Below the pieces are notes generated by a model. That model was not told the origin of the DNA and searched no databases. It saw only the letters and a program-made list of their open reading frames with translations. The translations under genes were made by a program, and so were the position numbers. Positions 1,384 to 25,500 of a DNA stretch of 37,566 nucleotides are shown one piece after another (position 1 is the stretch's first letter; each line of letters begins with the position of its first letter). This stretch comes from Nonlabens sp. (GTDB lineage: Bacteria > Bacteroidota > Bacteroidia > Flavobacteriales > Flavobacteriaceae): positions 1-37,566 of the forward strand of contig JALZUY010000304.1 in the NCBI GenBank assembly GCA_023301395.1, given 5' to 3'.

Positions 1384-3744
1384 ATGAAAAAACTTAAATT
1401 TTATTTACCACTTTTATTTTTATAGTTGTTACTTTTTCAAAGTTGTGAGAAAGATGAATTACCGCAAATTGAATCTGAAACAGTAATTTTCCCAAAATTA
1501 AGTGGGAGCATTATAAGTGTTGAAGATTTACTGAATAAACCAGATTTACACAATAAAATTCTAAGTCTATCAAAAGATTCTTTCAGGAAAACTAATGGCT
1601 CTAATCAAATCCAAATAGACACTACCCATATTGAAGTAATAGAATCCGATCAATTTACTGCTTATACCTTTGCGATTGTTCAGGACAGTATTGAAAAACA
1701 ATCCATTTTACGCAATTATATGTTGACTATAGTAAGTGATAGTTTACTAGTACAAAGTTTAGTGAGTTATCCTGTTTTAGCTGATAAACAACTGGATATG
1801 CAAAATATTCAATTCGAACAGGTTTGGGGAGATTCTTTAATCACTCAAACTAGATTTAAATGTGGTGGTACACAAACTACTTGGTATTCTTATGAAGATT
1901 GTTATGAGGTAAGATGCGGATTACGTGGAAATCATGGGCCTGGAGAACCTTGTGATGATGGTACACAAAGAGGTGGTGTAAACTGTGTCACAAGATGGGC
2001 GTCATTCACATATCAAGAGTCACCATGCGAAACCATTGATGCTGGTTCATCTCCTGGTGGCGGTGGTGGTTCTGGCGGTGGCGGCAATACCAATCCACCT
2101 AGGAATAATCCTCCAATCGATTTAGTTATTCCTATATCACCAGTAGGAGAACTTAATCCAGTTAATAATCAAATATCTAGAATTGATGATCAACTTAATT
2201 TAACTCCACAGCAAGTAATATTTTTAAATCAACCTGAAAATGAGCATATCACAGAGGCTGTTGATGAATATCTTGATGAACAGGCCTTGACTATAAATGA
2301 AGAAGGTAAACAGGCTTTGCGTGATGTGATCGATGTTTTTAGTGGAGAAAAAGACATTGATGATTTAGTAACCATTCTAGCTAACAGGCTTTATAATAAT
2401 ATATTAGGTAAATCTTTATTATCACTACCGTCAGGTCAATTTGATGATATTGCTGGATCCATGCAAAATCTGGATCCACATGATAATTTAAACCTTGCAG
2501 ATTGGAAAAATGTTTCTCAACGTAATAAAGAGAATTATTCAATAATTTCAGGTGTTATTGGGAATAGCGTATGGTCTAGCTTGACTGGATCTGAATTAGC
2601 TTTTACTCAAGCGCAGCAGGATACTATTACTCAAAATGCACTTTTTAGTGGAATGCTATCTGAACTAAAAGAAATTATAGAAAATACTGTTCCGCAAACT
2701 GCCGAAGAATGGGAAGCTTTATTTCAAATTTTAAAACCTGTGATTTTAGAATCCTTAATAGAGTTTATACCTGGTGGTGGTATAGCAATAGCTATAAATG
2801 ATATTGTAAATGAAATGTCTGCCACTCCTGCTGATTATACAGTTATAACCATAGCCGTAGTTTCTATTGTGGCCGAGTTCGTTCCTTGGGCAAAAATTGG
2901 TAAGGCGACTGCAAAAACCTTTAAGAACCTAACTAAAGGATTCCGAATTTTTAAGCGTGTAGAAAAATTTCTCCCTATGCTTAGAAGAGCTAATAATAAA
3001 GGATTTAAAACTAAAATCGATGGAGACGATATCATCATTAGTGGTGCACCTAATACTCCTGGATCTTTACAAATAGAAGCAGATCGTTTAAAGATAAAGG
3101 ATGATGGAAGTATTGAGATAATAGATGATTTAGGTGAGACAATTTTAGAGCCTAAAATATTTAAAAAATTAAATGGATTAAATGTCGTTAATAGCTCACC
3201 AGGAGGTTTTATAAATAGAACTAATATAAATAATAATTCACTAAAAATAAAAATAGATAATCCATCAAAGCAAGCAGACATTAATGCGATAAAAAATGGA
3301 CAAGATAACACAGGAAGTTTGAGTGAACGTCTTGTAGATGATATATTTGCAAACGATGGATATGAAGCTGTTGATCCTAATGTTTTAGGCGTTCCTAGCA
3401 CACAAGGCTTTGATAATGTGTTGATAAAACGTGATGCTGCTGGAAACATAGAAGATGTCATCATTAATGAATCAAAACAATTAAATTCGCCTACTGCTGG
3501 ATTTCAATTGGGAGATATTCAAGGTTCTAACAACAGTGCATGTCAAGGTGCTGGAGGCTGTATTCAAATGAGTGATAACTGGATAGATGATGTTCTTACT
3601 AGAATGCAGAATGGTAACGGTCCTCAGGCACAATTGGCGGCAGATTTAAGAGGCTTTATGAATACAAATCAACTAACTTTAACAACCTCTGGTGTGGATA
3701 GAGTGACCGGAGAACTTAATATTGTTAGAATTAATAATTTTTAA
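1384..3744 (+). CDS. Polymorphic-toxin-like lipoprotein with C-terminal PD-(D/E)XK-type nuclease domain; signal peptide interrupted by an in-frame TAG at 1423-1425 (provided ORF begins at TTG 1426)
   Basis: From ATG 1384: MKKLKFYLPLLFL*LLLFQSCEKDE, a lipoprotein signal with an internal stop. Then a Cys-containing region, a Gly linker (GGGGGSGGGG), a hydrophobic segment, and C-terminal GSLSERLVDDIFANDGYEAVDPN...GFDNVLI...DVIINESKQ...QMSDNWI. Confidence 0.7.
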
Positions 3745-3747
3745 CTA

Positions 3748-4536
3748 ATGACTTTTGACGATGCTAAACAAGTTCTCGAAAGAAGTAAGGAAACTTCATT
3801 AAAAAGGCTAAGTATCGCAGAAAAACAGTTTTTCGAATTAGGTGACGGAAGTGATTTTACTCTTGGTCAAAAAAATTCTTATTCTGCATTTTACGGTCTT
3901 GCTGAAGAAGCATTTGTAATTAGAAATAAAATAAATGATTGTAAAAATTGGTGTTTTCATGCAAGTCTATCACTTCTTATTAATTCTAGATTCACAAATG
4001 TTGGAGTCGCCGTCAATGGTATAGGTCCGGCTATTGCTCCTTTATTATCAGATAATATTAAAATAATTAAGGATGTAGTTAATTGGAAAAACAATAATTT
4101 CCACGATCATTTTATGAGAAAAGGCGCTATATTTTATATTGTAAAATATTTAATAGCAGGTGATTATGAAACCGCTCAAGCCTTATGGATGAAAGGTAAA
4201 AGCCATCCTGTTAAAAAAGCAGCATGGTATGCTATAGAGCGCGATATACTGCGAGCTATGATTGATAAAGATGAAGTAAAAACTAGAGAAGCGATTCTTC
4301 ATTTTTTAACTCCAGAGAGTATAGAGAAAACCCTAGATGATGTTTTTGTGAGTGGTTATTTTTTCAATACGATGACTATTGCTTATTTAAAACTGGCTTA
4401 TCACTTAGGCATGAATTTAGAAATAGAGCATGAATTAGTTCCTAAAGAATTAGTTGAATTTGCACCATTAGATAAGTACGAGATCAAATACGATTTTATG
4501 AAAAGAGATGATTTAAAGGATATTTTAGATGTTTAA
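3748..4536 (+). CDS. Candidate immunity protein directly downstream of toxin (possibly Imm49-like)
   Basis: Starts 4 nt after the toxin stop. Cytosolic, no signal peptide, alpha-helical-looking 262 aa. Family assignment is tentative. Confidence 0.5.
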   Translation: MTFDDAKQVLERSKETSLKRLSIAEKQFFELGDGSDFTLGQKNSYSAFYGLAEEAFVIRNKINDCKNWCFHASLSLLINSRFTNVGVAVNGIGPAIAPLLSDNIKIIKDVVNWKNNNFHDHFMRKGAIFYIVKYLIAGDYETAQALWMKGKSHPVKKAAWYAIERDILRAMIDKDEVKTREAILHFLTPESIEKTLDDVFVSGYFFNTMTIAYLKLAYHLGMNLEIEHELVPKELVEFAPLDKYEIKYDFMKRDDLKDILDV

Positions 4537-21319: not shown

Positions 21320-21847
21320 ATGAATAAAAACCTGCCATATTATCTGCTTGCTTTGAGTCTGTTTGGGCTTTTAAAGTTATGGTTAGGAACTTTTGATAAT
21401 CAGGAGCTTTACTTTTTATTGAAACCTACAGATGCGATATTTAGCCTAGTGAGTGGTTCAAAATCTGTGTTTACTGCACAAAATGGTTTTTTCCATGAGC
21501 GTTATCAAATGGTGATTGAGAAATCTTGTTCTGGATATAACTTCATGTTGATTTGTTTTTTAATGCTTTACTTCTTGATCATCAAATTTGTGAAGTCGAG
21601 AGCTTTTAAAGTAGTGTGGTTACTGGGTGCTTTAGGAATATCTTATGTGGTAACTGTATTCATTAATTCTTCAAGAATACTCGTGTCTGTATCATTACAG
21701 GATAGCATTGAAAACCTTTTACATCTAGATGCTGCGCTCACACATCAGTCCATAGGTGTTTTAACTAATCTTACTTTTTTAATCATCATCTATTTACTGG
21801 TAGAAAAAATAATCATCAAAAAATATGCGCAACTTACTTCATCCTAG
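21320..21847 (+). CDS. xrtK: Exosortase K
   Basis: Multi-TM 175 aa with exosortase catalytic signatures EKSCSGYNFM (Cys), FINSSRIL (Arg), ALTHQSIG (His). Confidence 0.88.
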   Translation: MNKNLPYYLLALSLFGLLKLWLGTFDNQELYFLLKPTDAIFSLVSGSKSVFTAQNGFFHERYQMVIEKSCSGYNFMLICFLMLYFLIIKFVKSRAFKVVWLLGALGISYVVTVFINSSRILVSVSLQDSIENLLHLDAALTHQSIGVLTNLTFLIIIYLLVEKIIIKKYAQLTSS

Positions 21848-24638
21848 ATGGCTTTTAATAGTCAACACTGTTCCTGTAATGGTCTTGTTTTTCTTGTTTT
21901 ATACTCAGTATAATATCATAGGTAGTTTACTCAAACCAGAATCTATAGCCTTATGGAAAATGTTTGGGATTAATCTTGCGATCCTTGCGTTTATAAACCT
22001 TGGGTATGCTGCTTATTTAATTCTTAGTAAACGCACAGTGCATATTTTATATGCAGCATTTATGCTCATAATTTACGTAGTGTTTGTGTATTGGTATAGT
22101 ACTTATTCTAGTGAGATCATACCGTTTGGTATTCCGCGATGGATGGTGCCTGGAGATATGTTTCTTTATGTGGGAACTTTTTTAATGCCTACTATGGCTT
22201 ATGCGCTATTGATTCTCGTGGTGCATTTTACACAATCACAGAGAAACCCAAAACCCTGGAAAAGTTTTTTAATGGCAATAGGTGTTCCGGCGCTTTGGTT
22301 TATCATAGTACAAGTAATGATTCCTTTAAGAAAGCAACTAGATTTAAATTATAATAATCATGTTATTGGTGTTTTCTTTATTGCAGGAACAGTATTGTTC
22401 TTGTTTTTCTTAATTAGGTTTATATATATACTTATTACTAGAAAGTCTGCGGTATGGAAAAAGTATGAACTGTTCTGGAAAATACCTATAGTTCTTGTAC
22501 TACCGCTTATAGGTCTATCATTGAATAATGGAGATATTACGAGTGAGTTTTCTAGTGGTGTTTTTGGAGATTTCAGTAGTGTATGGTTTTACGTTCTCAT
22601 TGTTATTAATGGAATTCTACTATGTCTTCCTAACTTAGAGAAAAGGTCTTATAGAATTTTATTATTCATAGGTCGTACTATATTATTTGCCTTTACTTTA
22701 TATTTTTTCTTAGTCTTTTTACCATTCCTACCATTTTCTGTACTAGCTATTATAGTAATGGGAACTGGGTTTTTAATGCTTGCTCCATTAATGCTTTTTG
22801 TGATTCATATAAATGAGTTGGCTAGTGATTATAAATATTTAAGACAGCATCTTGCTAAGAAGATGTTGCCTGTTATTTCTATGATTGGGTTTTTAGTGAT
22901 TCCTGGGTTTTTAACTCTATCATTTTTAAACGATAAAGCAACACTGGAACATACTTTGAACTATTTATATGAACCAGATTATACGGTCTCTTATGACTTA
23001 GATAAAGAGTCACTCAAGTCCACTTTGCAAGTGATCAAGAAACATAAGGATAGGAATGGAGCTTTTATTTTTGGTTCTCAAACGCCTTATATATCTACTT
23101 ATTTCAACTGGTTAGTACTGGATAACCTCACACTATCAGATTCAAAAATCAATTATATTGAAAAAGTATTTTTTAGAAAGCCATCTTTTAACGTAAGAGG
23201 AAGAAGTGAGAATATCAATAATGGAAATGTGACCATCACTAATACTACTGTGGAGAGCACTTATGATGAAACTGAAAAGGTTTGGAAAAGCTGGATTAAT
23301 CTAGAAATAACAAACGGTAATGAAGGTTTTAGAAATGCTGAGTACAGCACAATTATCGATTTGCCAGTAGGTTGCTGGATTAGTGATTACTATTTATATG
23401 TGGGCGAGCGTAAGGAAATGGGGATTCTAGCAGAGAAGAAAGCTGCTATGTGGGTTTTCTCGCAGATTAGAAATGAGAACAGAGATCCTGGGATTCTATA
23501 TTATTTAACGGGTAATAAAGTCTCTTTTAGAGTGTTTCCTTTTACAAAGGAAGAAGTACGCAAAACAGGAATTGAATTCATCCATAAAGAACCTGTAAGT
23601 ATCAATCTAGATGGTAATCTTATCAAGTTAGGTAATCCCAAAGAAAATCCAGATGATGCTTTTGAGAACGATGATATTGCTTATGTGCCAGTTAGTAAGA
23701 AGCAAACTCTGCGCAAAGTGCAACGCAAGCCCTATTTCCATTTTCTAGTAGATGGATCAAGTTCTGAAAACGCACTGAGTAAAGAAGAAATTGAAGAACG
23801 TATAAGTGCACTTTTAAATAAATATCCAGATTTAAAAGTAAATTCAAAAGTGAGTAAAGTGAATTCTTATGTGACTACTAAAAATATAGATGATAGCTGG
23901 CAATCGTTATTTATGGGTGTTCCTTCTGGTGGATTTTTTCTCGATAGAGCCATAAAAAACACGCTTGTAAATTCTTTTAAAACACATTCAGATAATTATC
24001 CAGTTATGGTGGTCGTGGCAAATGATATAGAACATGCTATTATAGATAAGGACTTCTCTGATCTTGCAGTTACATTTCCAGAAATGGATAACTTCTATCA
24101 CTTAATAGATAGTGATAGTCTTATGACTCATTCTTTGTTAAAGAATCCAATATTACCAATTATAGAAAAAGAACCTTCGTTTTTTAAATCGTCTTTAGAG
24201 TTCATTTCTTCAGATAATAAGAGTCATTATATTTCAGTAGGTTCCACACCTAGTATAGTTCTCAAAAAGGATTTTATTTCTATAAATGAGGATAGCGTAA
24301 AGGAAAAAGATTGGGAAACGGCACTGCAATTAAATGGTAACTGGACTTCTCAAAACCTTAACCCATCTAAACCTGGAGAATGGTTAAGTCTTGTAAGAGC
24401 TAGCTTTTTATCTAGAGTGATGTCTCCAGTAACTTCTTATCTCGTAGTAGAGAACGAAGCCCAAAAGGCTATTTTAAAGAAGAAACAAGAACAAATCTTA
24501 TCAAGCAATAAGTCACTTGACCCAGGAGAAGATTTACAAAGAATGAGCGAGCCTAGCTGGATTATCATTATAATTTTAATGAGTCTGTTTTATTATTTTA
24601 GAAGAAAAAGTAGAAATAAACGCAAGATGATTTTATAA
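21825..24638 (+). CDS. MSEP-CTERM protein: multi-TM N-terminus, VIT-like region, VWA-like segment, C-terminal MSEP sorting signal
   Basis: C-terminus DLQRMSEPSWIIIIILMSLFYYFRRKSRNKRK (MSEP + TM + basic tail); FLVDGSSS DxSxS-like motif; overlaps xrtK by 23 nt. Confidence 0.88.
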   Translation: MRNLLHPRWLLIVNTVPVMVLFFLFYTQYNIIGSLLKPESIALWKMFGINLAILAFINLGYAAYLILSKRTVHILYAAFMLIIYVVFVYWYSTYSSEIIPFGIPRWMVPGDMFLYVGTFLMPTMAYALLILVVHFTQSQRNPKPWKSFLMAIGVPALWFIIVQVMIPLRKQLDLNYNNHVIGVFFIAGTVLFLFFLIRFIYILITRKSAVWKKYELFWKIPIVLVLPLIGLSLNNGDITSEFSSGVFGDFSSVWFYVLIVINGILLCLPNLEKRSYRILLFIGRTILFAFTLYFFLVFLPFLPFSVLAIIVMGTGFLMLAPLMLFVIHINELASDYKYLRQHLAKKMLPVISMIGFLVIPGFLTLSFLNDKATLEHTLNYLYEPDYTVSYDLDKESLKSTLQVIKKHKDRNGAFIFGSQTPYISTYFNWLVLDNLTLSDSKINYIEKVFFRKPSFNVRGRSENINNGNVTITNTTVESTYDETEKVWKSWINLEITNGNEGFRNAEYSTIIDLPVGCWISDYYLYVGERKEMGILAEKKAAMWVFSQIRNENRDPGILYYLTGNKVSFRVFPFTKEEVRKTGIEFIHKEPVSINLDGNLIKLGNPKENPDDAFENDDIAYVPVSKKQTLRKVQRKPYFHFLVDGSSSENALSKEEIEERISALLNKYPDLKVNSKVSKVNSYVTTKNIDDSWQSLFMGVPSGGFFLDRAIKNTLVNSFKTHSDNYPVMVVVANDIEHAIIDKDFSDLAVTFPEMDNFYHLIDSDSLMTHSLLKNPILPIIEKEPSFFKSSLEFISSDNKSHYISVGSTPSIVLKKDFISINEDSVKEKDWETALQLNGNWTSQNLNPSKPGEWLSLVRASFLSRVMSPVTSYLVVENEAQKAILKKKQEQILSSNKSLDPGEDLQRMSEPSWIIIIILMSLFYYFRRKSRNKRKMIL

Positions 24639-24715: not shown

Positions 24716-25033
24716 CTAGCGAAAAATTTGAATAGTTAGTAAAAAAATTGTCAGATAAATTATAATCATTGATGAGCTAGTTACCAATCCAATTATTTTC
24801 TGGGTCATGTTTGTCATTTGCCTTTTCTTAAGCTCATAAATGGAAAGCGTAAAACATGCGACACTGATAATAATATGAAAAACAAATGCAGTTATCATAT
24901 AAGATTCGCCCAGCATGTTTAAAATCCTCCAGCCTCTATAAAATATAGGACTGACTGACAATATTACGATTGGACTCATACAGAGTATTCCTAACACGAC
25001 CAAATAACCTTTCTTGTGAATGAACCATTCCAT
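24716..25033 (-). CDS. Hypothetical membrane protein
   Basis: 105 aa with about 3 TM segments; directly downstream of the YiaA-like gene. Confidence 0.6.
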   Translation of the reverse strand: MEWFIHKKGYLVVLGILCMSPIVILSVSPIFYRGWRILNMLGESYMITAFVFHIIISVACFTLSIYELKKRQMTNMTQKIIGLVTSSSMIIIYLTIFLLTIQIFR

Positions 25034-25038
25034 AGCTT

Positions 25039-25500
25039 CTATTTTTCTTGATCATCAATAAACTTCACATCTCTCGTGTTCTTTTGAACAGCAATAGCAG
25101 CAAATAAACTGAGCGCAAATGACATACCGTAGAATCCTTTCTCGCTCAAGAGCAAGTCTGCGTTCCATAGTCCTATGACTAGTAATACCAGTGATGCGAT
25201 GGTTACAAACCACGAGATGCCGTAATAAATGTCTGTCACTGCGACGCCTTCTTGCTTGTCTCTCACGGCTTTTTGGACAGATATTACTGAGAATAATCCA
25301 AATAATAGGATGACAAAATAGTAGCCTTTCTCATTGAGTAGCATGTCTGCGTTCCACAATCCTATGCAGTATGCTACCATTCCTATGAGCAGTGCGCTCC
25401 ACGATGCTGCAATAAATGCTGGAGTAGGTTTACCGTTGAATGCTTCTTTCTCTTTCTTTTCTGTTTTTACATTTACTGGGTTGAATGTTTGATTTTCCAT
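25039..25500 (-). CDS. yiaA: YiaA/YiaB-like inner membrane protein
   Basis: Two tandem YiaAB two-helix units: [35 protein letters not shown] and [35 protein letters not shown]. Confidence 0.88.

Follow-up and report, generated by a model that had tools for sequence, protein, structure and literature searches.

In 2011, proteins with VIT and VWA domains were described that carry GlyGly-CTERM, PEP-CTERM or LPXTG tails, each together with its cognate enzyme, and the LPXTG forms make up dedicated pairs (PMC3237569, Figure 3C). For the exosortases of Bacteroidota, the nearest experimental handle that we found is xrtF of Flavobacterium johnsoniae, a gene that came from a screen for genes of surface colonisation and biofilm formation (PMC10936215). 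As far as we found, the pairings of exosortases with tails in this phylum rest mainly on co-occurrence. Exosortase K (XrtK, TIGR04287) and its MSEP-CTERM protein (TIGR04286) are an already named kind of system; in the literature searched, we found no publications about exosortase K, MSEP-CTERM or PID-CTERM, nor any biochemical work on the exosortase K/MSEP-CTERM family.

Herein, we describe such a pair in a stretch of Nonlabens sp. DNA of 37,566 nt, called the window below. The xrtK gene lies at 21320..21847 on the forward strand and encodes 175 amino acids. In a profile search, the protein matched TIGR04287 with 130 bits (cut-off 55, E 5.7e-38) over model positions 1–162 of 163, while the exosortase N model TIGR04476 gave 28.8 bits, below its cut-off of 200. 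The original prediction, made from the letters of the window, held that XrtK carries the Cys-Arg-His exosortase triad. The alignment bore this out: C70 (EKSCSG), R119 (NSSRI) and H142 (THQS) are invariant in 27 of 27 homologues, none of which lacks a catalytic residue, and K68, N116, P36, G56, G146 and L154 are likewise invariant. AlphaFold2 modelled the enzyme with a mean pLDDT of 91.9, and no solved structure resembling it was found, either by sequence or by fold search.

The next gene, at 21825..24638 on the same strand, encodes a protein of 937 amino acids, the proposed dedicated substrate of XrtK. It matched TIGR04286 with 886 bits (cut-off 150, E 2.7e-266) over model positions 1–916 of 920, so that both members of the pair passed the curated cut-offs over their full length. 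This gene had been predicted to overlap xrtK and to end in an MSEP motif, a transmembrane helix and a basic tail, and all of these are present: the overlap spans 23 nt (21825..21847), and the protein ends in RMSEPSWIIIIILMSLFYYFRRKSRNKRKMIL. Its tail reads LQR-MSEP-SWIIIIILMSLFYYF-RRKSRNKRKMIL, with the motif at residues 907–910 (24543..24554) and the helix and basic tail at 24555..24635; the AlphaFold2 model places the helix at residues 912–936 with low confidence. Together, the two genes run exactly from the first base of xrtK at 21320 to the MSEP stop codon at 24638. The two genes are adjacent in 27 of 27 homologous pairs. They overlap in 23 of these, 19 by exactly 17 nt, and the remaining four have gaps of 78–101 nt. 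This pattern suggests translational coupling. In conclusion, the pair is confirmed as a real instance of exosortase K with an MSEP-CTERM protein, alike to the known ones in its full-length matches, adjacency and overlap, and different in nothing essential.

If xrtK and the MSEP gene were neighbours for operon reasons only, then the tail could be a plain membrane anchor that is never cut. The tail sequences are short, and the body would be a membrane protein regardless, both of which suit this explanation. Yet the triad is invariant in the 27 homologues, the motif keeps its M, E and P in all 27 XrtK-linked tails while the positions that follow vary, and, as described below, where XrtK has been lost the motif becomes that of another exosortase system in the same genome. 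A tail that is only an anchor is thus very unlikely. The reading that we favour, with a probability of about 0.8, is a dedicated enzyme–substrate pair in which XrtK cuts at MSEP, the tail is replaceable, and the freed C-terminus is most likely passed on.

In several relatives, a series of genes for small membrane proteins lies upstream of the pair; the window has no such series next to its own. An apparent operon of this kind lies 5' of xrtK at L059:5714-9477 and at three further loci (L060, L061 and L026). At L059 it comprises, by Pfam, a winged-helix regulator (HTH_34), DUF4153, DUF218, DUF2809 and DUF1361, and at L061 it additionally includes a Coq4-like protein. In the window, two genes are convergent with the MSEP gene: one for a 105-aa membrane protein with no family match (24716-25033) and one for a YiaA-family inner membrane protein (25039-25500, 209.7 bits). 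Elsewhere in the window, positions 1426-4536 encode a 772-aa protein that matches nothing in Pfam or NCBIfam and, next to it, a 262-aa protein that resembles the immunity protein Imm49 below threshold (25.6 bits, gathering 30.1); these two could possibly be a secreted toxin and its immunity protein.

AlphaFold2, run on 52 sequences, modelled the substrate with a mean pLDDT of 86.4 and a pTM of 0.84, as 11 N-terminal helices, a soluble part and the low-confidence terminal helix. The predicted membrane part comprises residues 7–382 (21843..22970), and residues 383–911 (22971..24557) make up the predicted periplasmic part with its VIT-like and VWA-like domains. Assuming an N-in topology, the short inner loops hold 18 K/R and the outer loops 4, and from this positive-inside count we infer that the soluble part is periplasmic and the basic tail cytoplasmic, the topology expected of an exosortase substrate. 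The Pfam VIT match is weak (E 0.0066, below the gathering score). Foldseek returned inter-alpha-inhibitor heavy chain 1 (6fpz) as the best solved fold (E 8.7e-9, probability 1.00, about 600 columns), with low global TM-scores of 0.18–0.24, and the body has the VIT plus VWA architecture of the heavy chain family. A canonical VWA metal site (DxSxS) was considered and was not supported: of the 52 rows, 51 have D643 and all have S645, and the third position is variable.

This architecture bears on what the processing could achieve. Under the general model, which concerns PEP-CTERM proteins that have a signal peptide (PMC1569441), processing would release the protein from the cell or bring it to the surface or the outer membrane. 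A body with 11 helices is unlike this usual picture: the predicted helices would keep it anchored in the inner membrane unless a second cut were made internally, and release or relocation is very unlikely. Because clipping the tail of such a body cannot release it, the cut more probably serves to free the periplasmic domain or to link it covalently. In the dedicated pair, XrtK would sit in the inner membrane, where Cys70, with Arg119 and His142, would do the cutting. The substrate would be cut at or near the MSEP motif on the periplasmic face, whereupon the last helix and the basic tail would be removed. It would remain in the membrane via its 11 N-terminal helices, so the cut would not be for release; it would free the C-terminal end of the VIT/VWA-like domain in the periplasm, and this end would most likely be handed to an envelope acceptor, be it a glycan, a lipid or a peptide.

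A glycan is suggested by analogy: in animals, the C-terminus of heavy chain 1 is covalently attached to either hyaluronan or chondroitin sulfate (PMC7170535). The body might then be a bacterial counterpart of the heavy chains, an inner-membrane VIT/VWA protein whose C-terminus is coupled to envelope polysaccharide by whichever exosortase is present (XrtK, XrtX or, in its cousins, XrtN), and which would act as a tether or sensor between inner membrane and glycan. We consider such a counterpart decidedly unlikely. Heavy chain 1 resembles the body in fold and differs from it in processing and in the third residue of the metal site, and the likeness is one of analogy only.

Next, we consider how exclusive the pair is. 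The assembly of the window's genome, which is 78% complete, contains one XrtK. A tail-sequence search of it, with one query, which would miss very divergent tails, found no second MSEP tail. The other exosortase of this genome is XrtF (220.9 bits, cut-off 90; G000:C244:11017-11274, L022), and XrtX is not among the two. The same genome, with XrtK and XrtF as its exosortases, has a 76-aa open frame with a weak PID-CTERM-like match of 18.8 bits, under the cut-off of 26 (G000:C309:3865-3930). The predicted arrangement, a single enzyme next to a single substrate, is seen here, as far as the 78% complete assembly shows, and in 27 of 27 examined genomes with XrtK; it does not hold when read from the substrate, 28 orthologues of which occur without XrtK and with another tail. 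Exclusiveness is thus one-directional: XrtK was always found beside its substrate, and the body is not bound to XrtK.

One such full-length orthologue without XrtK lies outside the window's family, in genome G458 (L040, G458:C1:2167222-2169966). Its tail is PID-CTERM (NF046080, 28.9 bits, cut-off 26), not MSEP. The sole exosortase found in G458, which among the switched genomes is the one with a complete exosortase listing, is XrtX (NF046081, 249 bits, cut-off 170), encoded on a different contig from the body. The family of G458 may be Hymenobacteraceae-like, given where PID-CTERM occurs. When 201 genomes of this family were searched for the body, XrtK and XrtX, body orthologues were found in 43 and XrtX in 106, and all 15 genomes with XrtK fell within the 43. 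Across 55 orthologues from this family and from XrtK-bearing relatives elsewhere, 27 had XrtK and an MSEP-type tail, 28 had no XrtK and a PID-type tail, and none was mixed. All 28 belong to one family, of the same class as the window. A motif rule also picked up an xrtK candidate of 134 aa in G779, at a distance of 387 nt; it was rejected, as no protein of G779 matched the TIGR04287 HMM. TIGR04286 names the 28 orthologues MSEP-CTERM as well (e.g. 743 bits) though their tails are of the PID-CTERM type and XrtK is absent, and the equivalog name is misleading there.

The enzyme that accompanies the PID-type tail was found throughout: XrtX is present in 28 of 28 switched genomes, in 4 of 15 unswitched genomes of the same family, and in 74 of 158 without the body. 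Comparing the switched with the XrtK-bearing genomes of this family gives a Fisher P of 2e-7, which is not a true probability, as the rows share ancestry. In the genomes with both XrtK and XrtX (G744, G783, G844 and G857), the body is still MSEP-tailed. Of the 28 switched bodies, the PID model detected the tail in 27, with 21 scoring above its cut-off, and the body of G694, which the model missed, was classed as switched by its VPLDDY motif. The switch could reflect shared ancestry only, the PID-like motif having come about by drift within a single clade in which exosortase X is present by chance, with XrtX not processing the body; the tree needs one change only, and exosortase X is common in the switched family (106/201). 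Against drift, however, stand the 21 bodies over the curated PID cut-off, whose genomes, like the switched genomes in general, also encode further PID-CTERM proteins; the 11 genomes with XrtK and without XrtX, in which the PID model found no PID tails; and the P and D of the motif, which are kept in 28 of 28 switched bodies. Drift is unlikely on this evidence. The tail of the proposed pair would instead be a replaceable address label, and in the lineage without xrtK the same body, now with a PID-CTERM-type tail, would be processed by a new enzyme, presumably XrtX as judged by co-occurrence.

In a tree of the bodies computed with the last 90 residues removed, the PID-tailed rows form one clade (SH-aLRT 99) that is nested among MSEP-tailed rows. 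Thus, one switch suffices, and from MSEP to PID is its natural direction, the root not having been formally inferred. Since the switch is a single event, the match of tail and enzyme in 55 of 55 orthologues does not amount to 55 independent tests. In nine PID-tailed and four MSEP-tailed loci, the body has an aconitase gene no more than 1.4 kb upstream of it. As this neighbour occurs on both sides of the switch, the body in those loci stayed put and xrtK vanished. No decayed xrtK was found upstream of PID-tailed bodies, where the best E of 0.014 among many queries is at chance level.

Among 301 genomes from the family of the window, 8 had an MSEP-CTERM match over the cut-off, as did 5 of 396 genomes sampled phylum-wide; a single-sequence scan of contigs had yielded one relative only, and the whole-genome family searches recovered more. 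Two genomes of the window's genus have no MSEP-CTERM protein, and each has a single exosortase, not XrtK, whose sequence resembles the XrtF of the window's genome. In both, a different, convergent gene, which we take to be rsmI-like, lies 3' of xth, where the window has xrtK. The distribution of the pair is therefore patchy, via loss or transfer. Searches of plasmids and of viral contigs recovered no relatives of the pair, which leaves a carrier element without support. The GC content of the pair is 33.0% and that of the window 35.4%, a difference too small to argue for a foreign base composition.

The body family is a natural exchange experiment, in which the enzyme changed and the tail changed along with it. 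The switch supports both assignments, XrtK with MSEP and XrtX with PID, and suggests that specificity resides in the tail. It also suggests that the body requires a sorting tail at its C-terminus no matter which enzyme recognises it. Being polytopic, the body offers a clean system in which to ask what exosortase processing achieves for a protein that it cannot release.

A third exosortase type is reached through the VIT protein of the XrtN system (TIGR04477), whose membrane and VIT regions are homologous to those of the substrate (hhalign probability 99%, E 8.5e-18). With 66 bits against a cut-off of 250, the substrate is a homologue and not a member of that family. As here, enzyme and substrate of the XrtN system form an adjacent pair; its tail, however, is PEPHEW and not MSEP, and its enzyme, of 413–442 aa, is encoded 3' of the substrate, as read in two loci with a large downstream frame. 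The MSEP, PID and XrtN-system forms are thus related bodies paired with three exosortase types. We found no publication that describes the switch from MSEP to PID in the literature covered, which does not include the main archaeosortase/exosortase paper of 2012. The VIT/VWA examples of 2011 come from distant lineages (PMC3237569), whereas the proteins compared here are full-length orthologues with polytopic bodies, mostly from one family, with a single switch and the old enzyme lost. What appears to be new relative to 2011 is a switch of exosortase system within full-length orthologues, in which the first enzyme was lost and tail and enzyme match in 55 of 55 cases.
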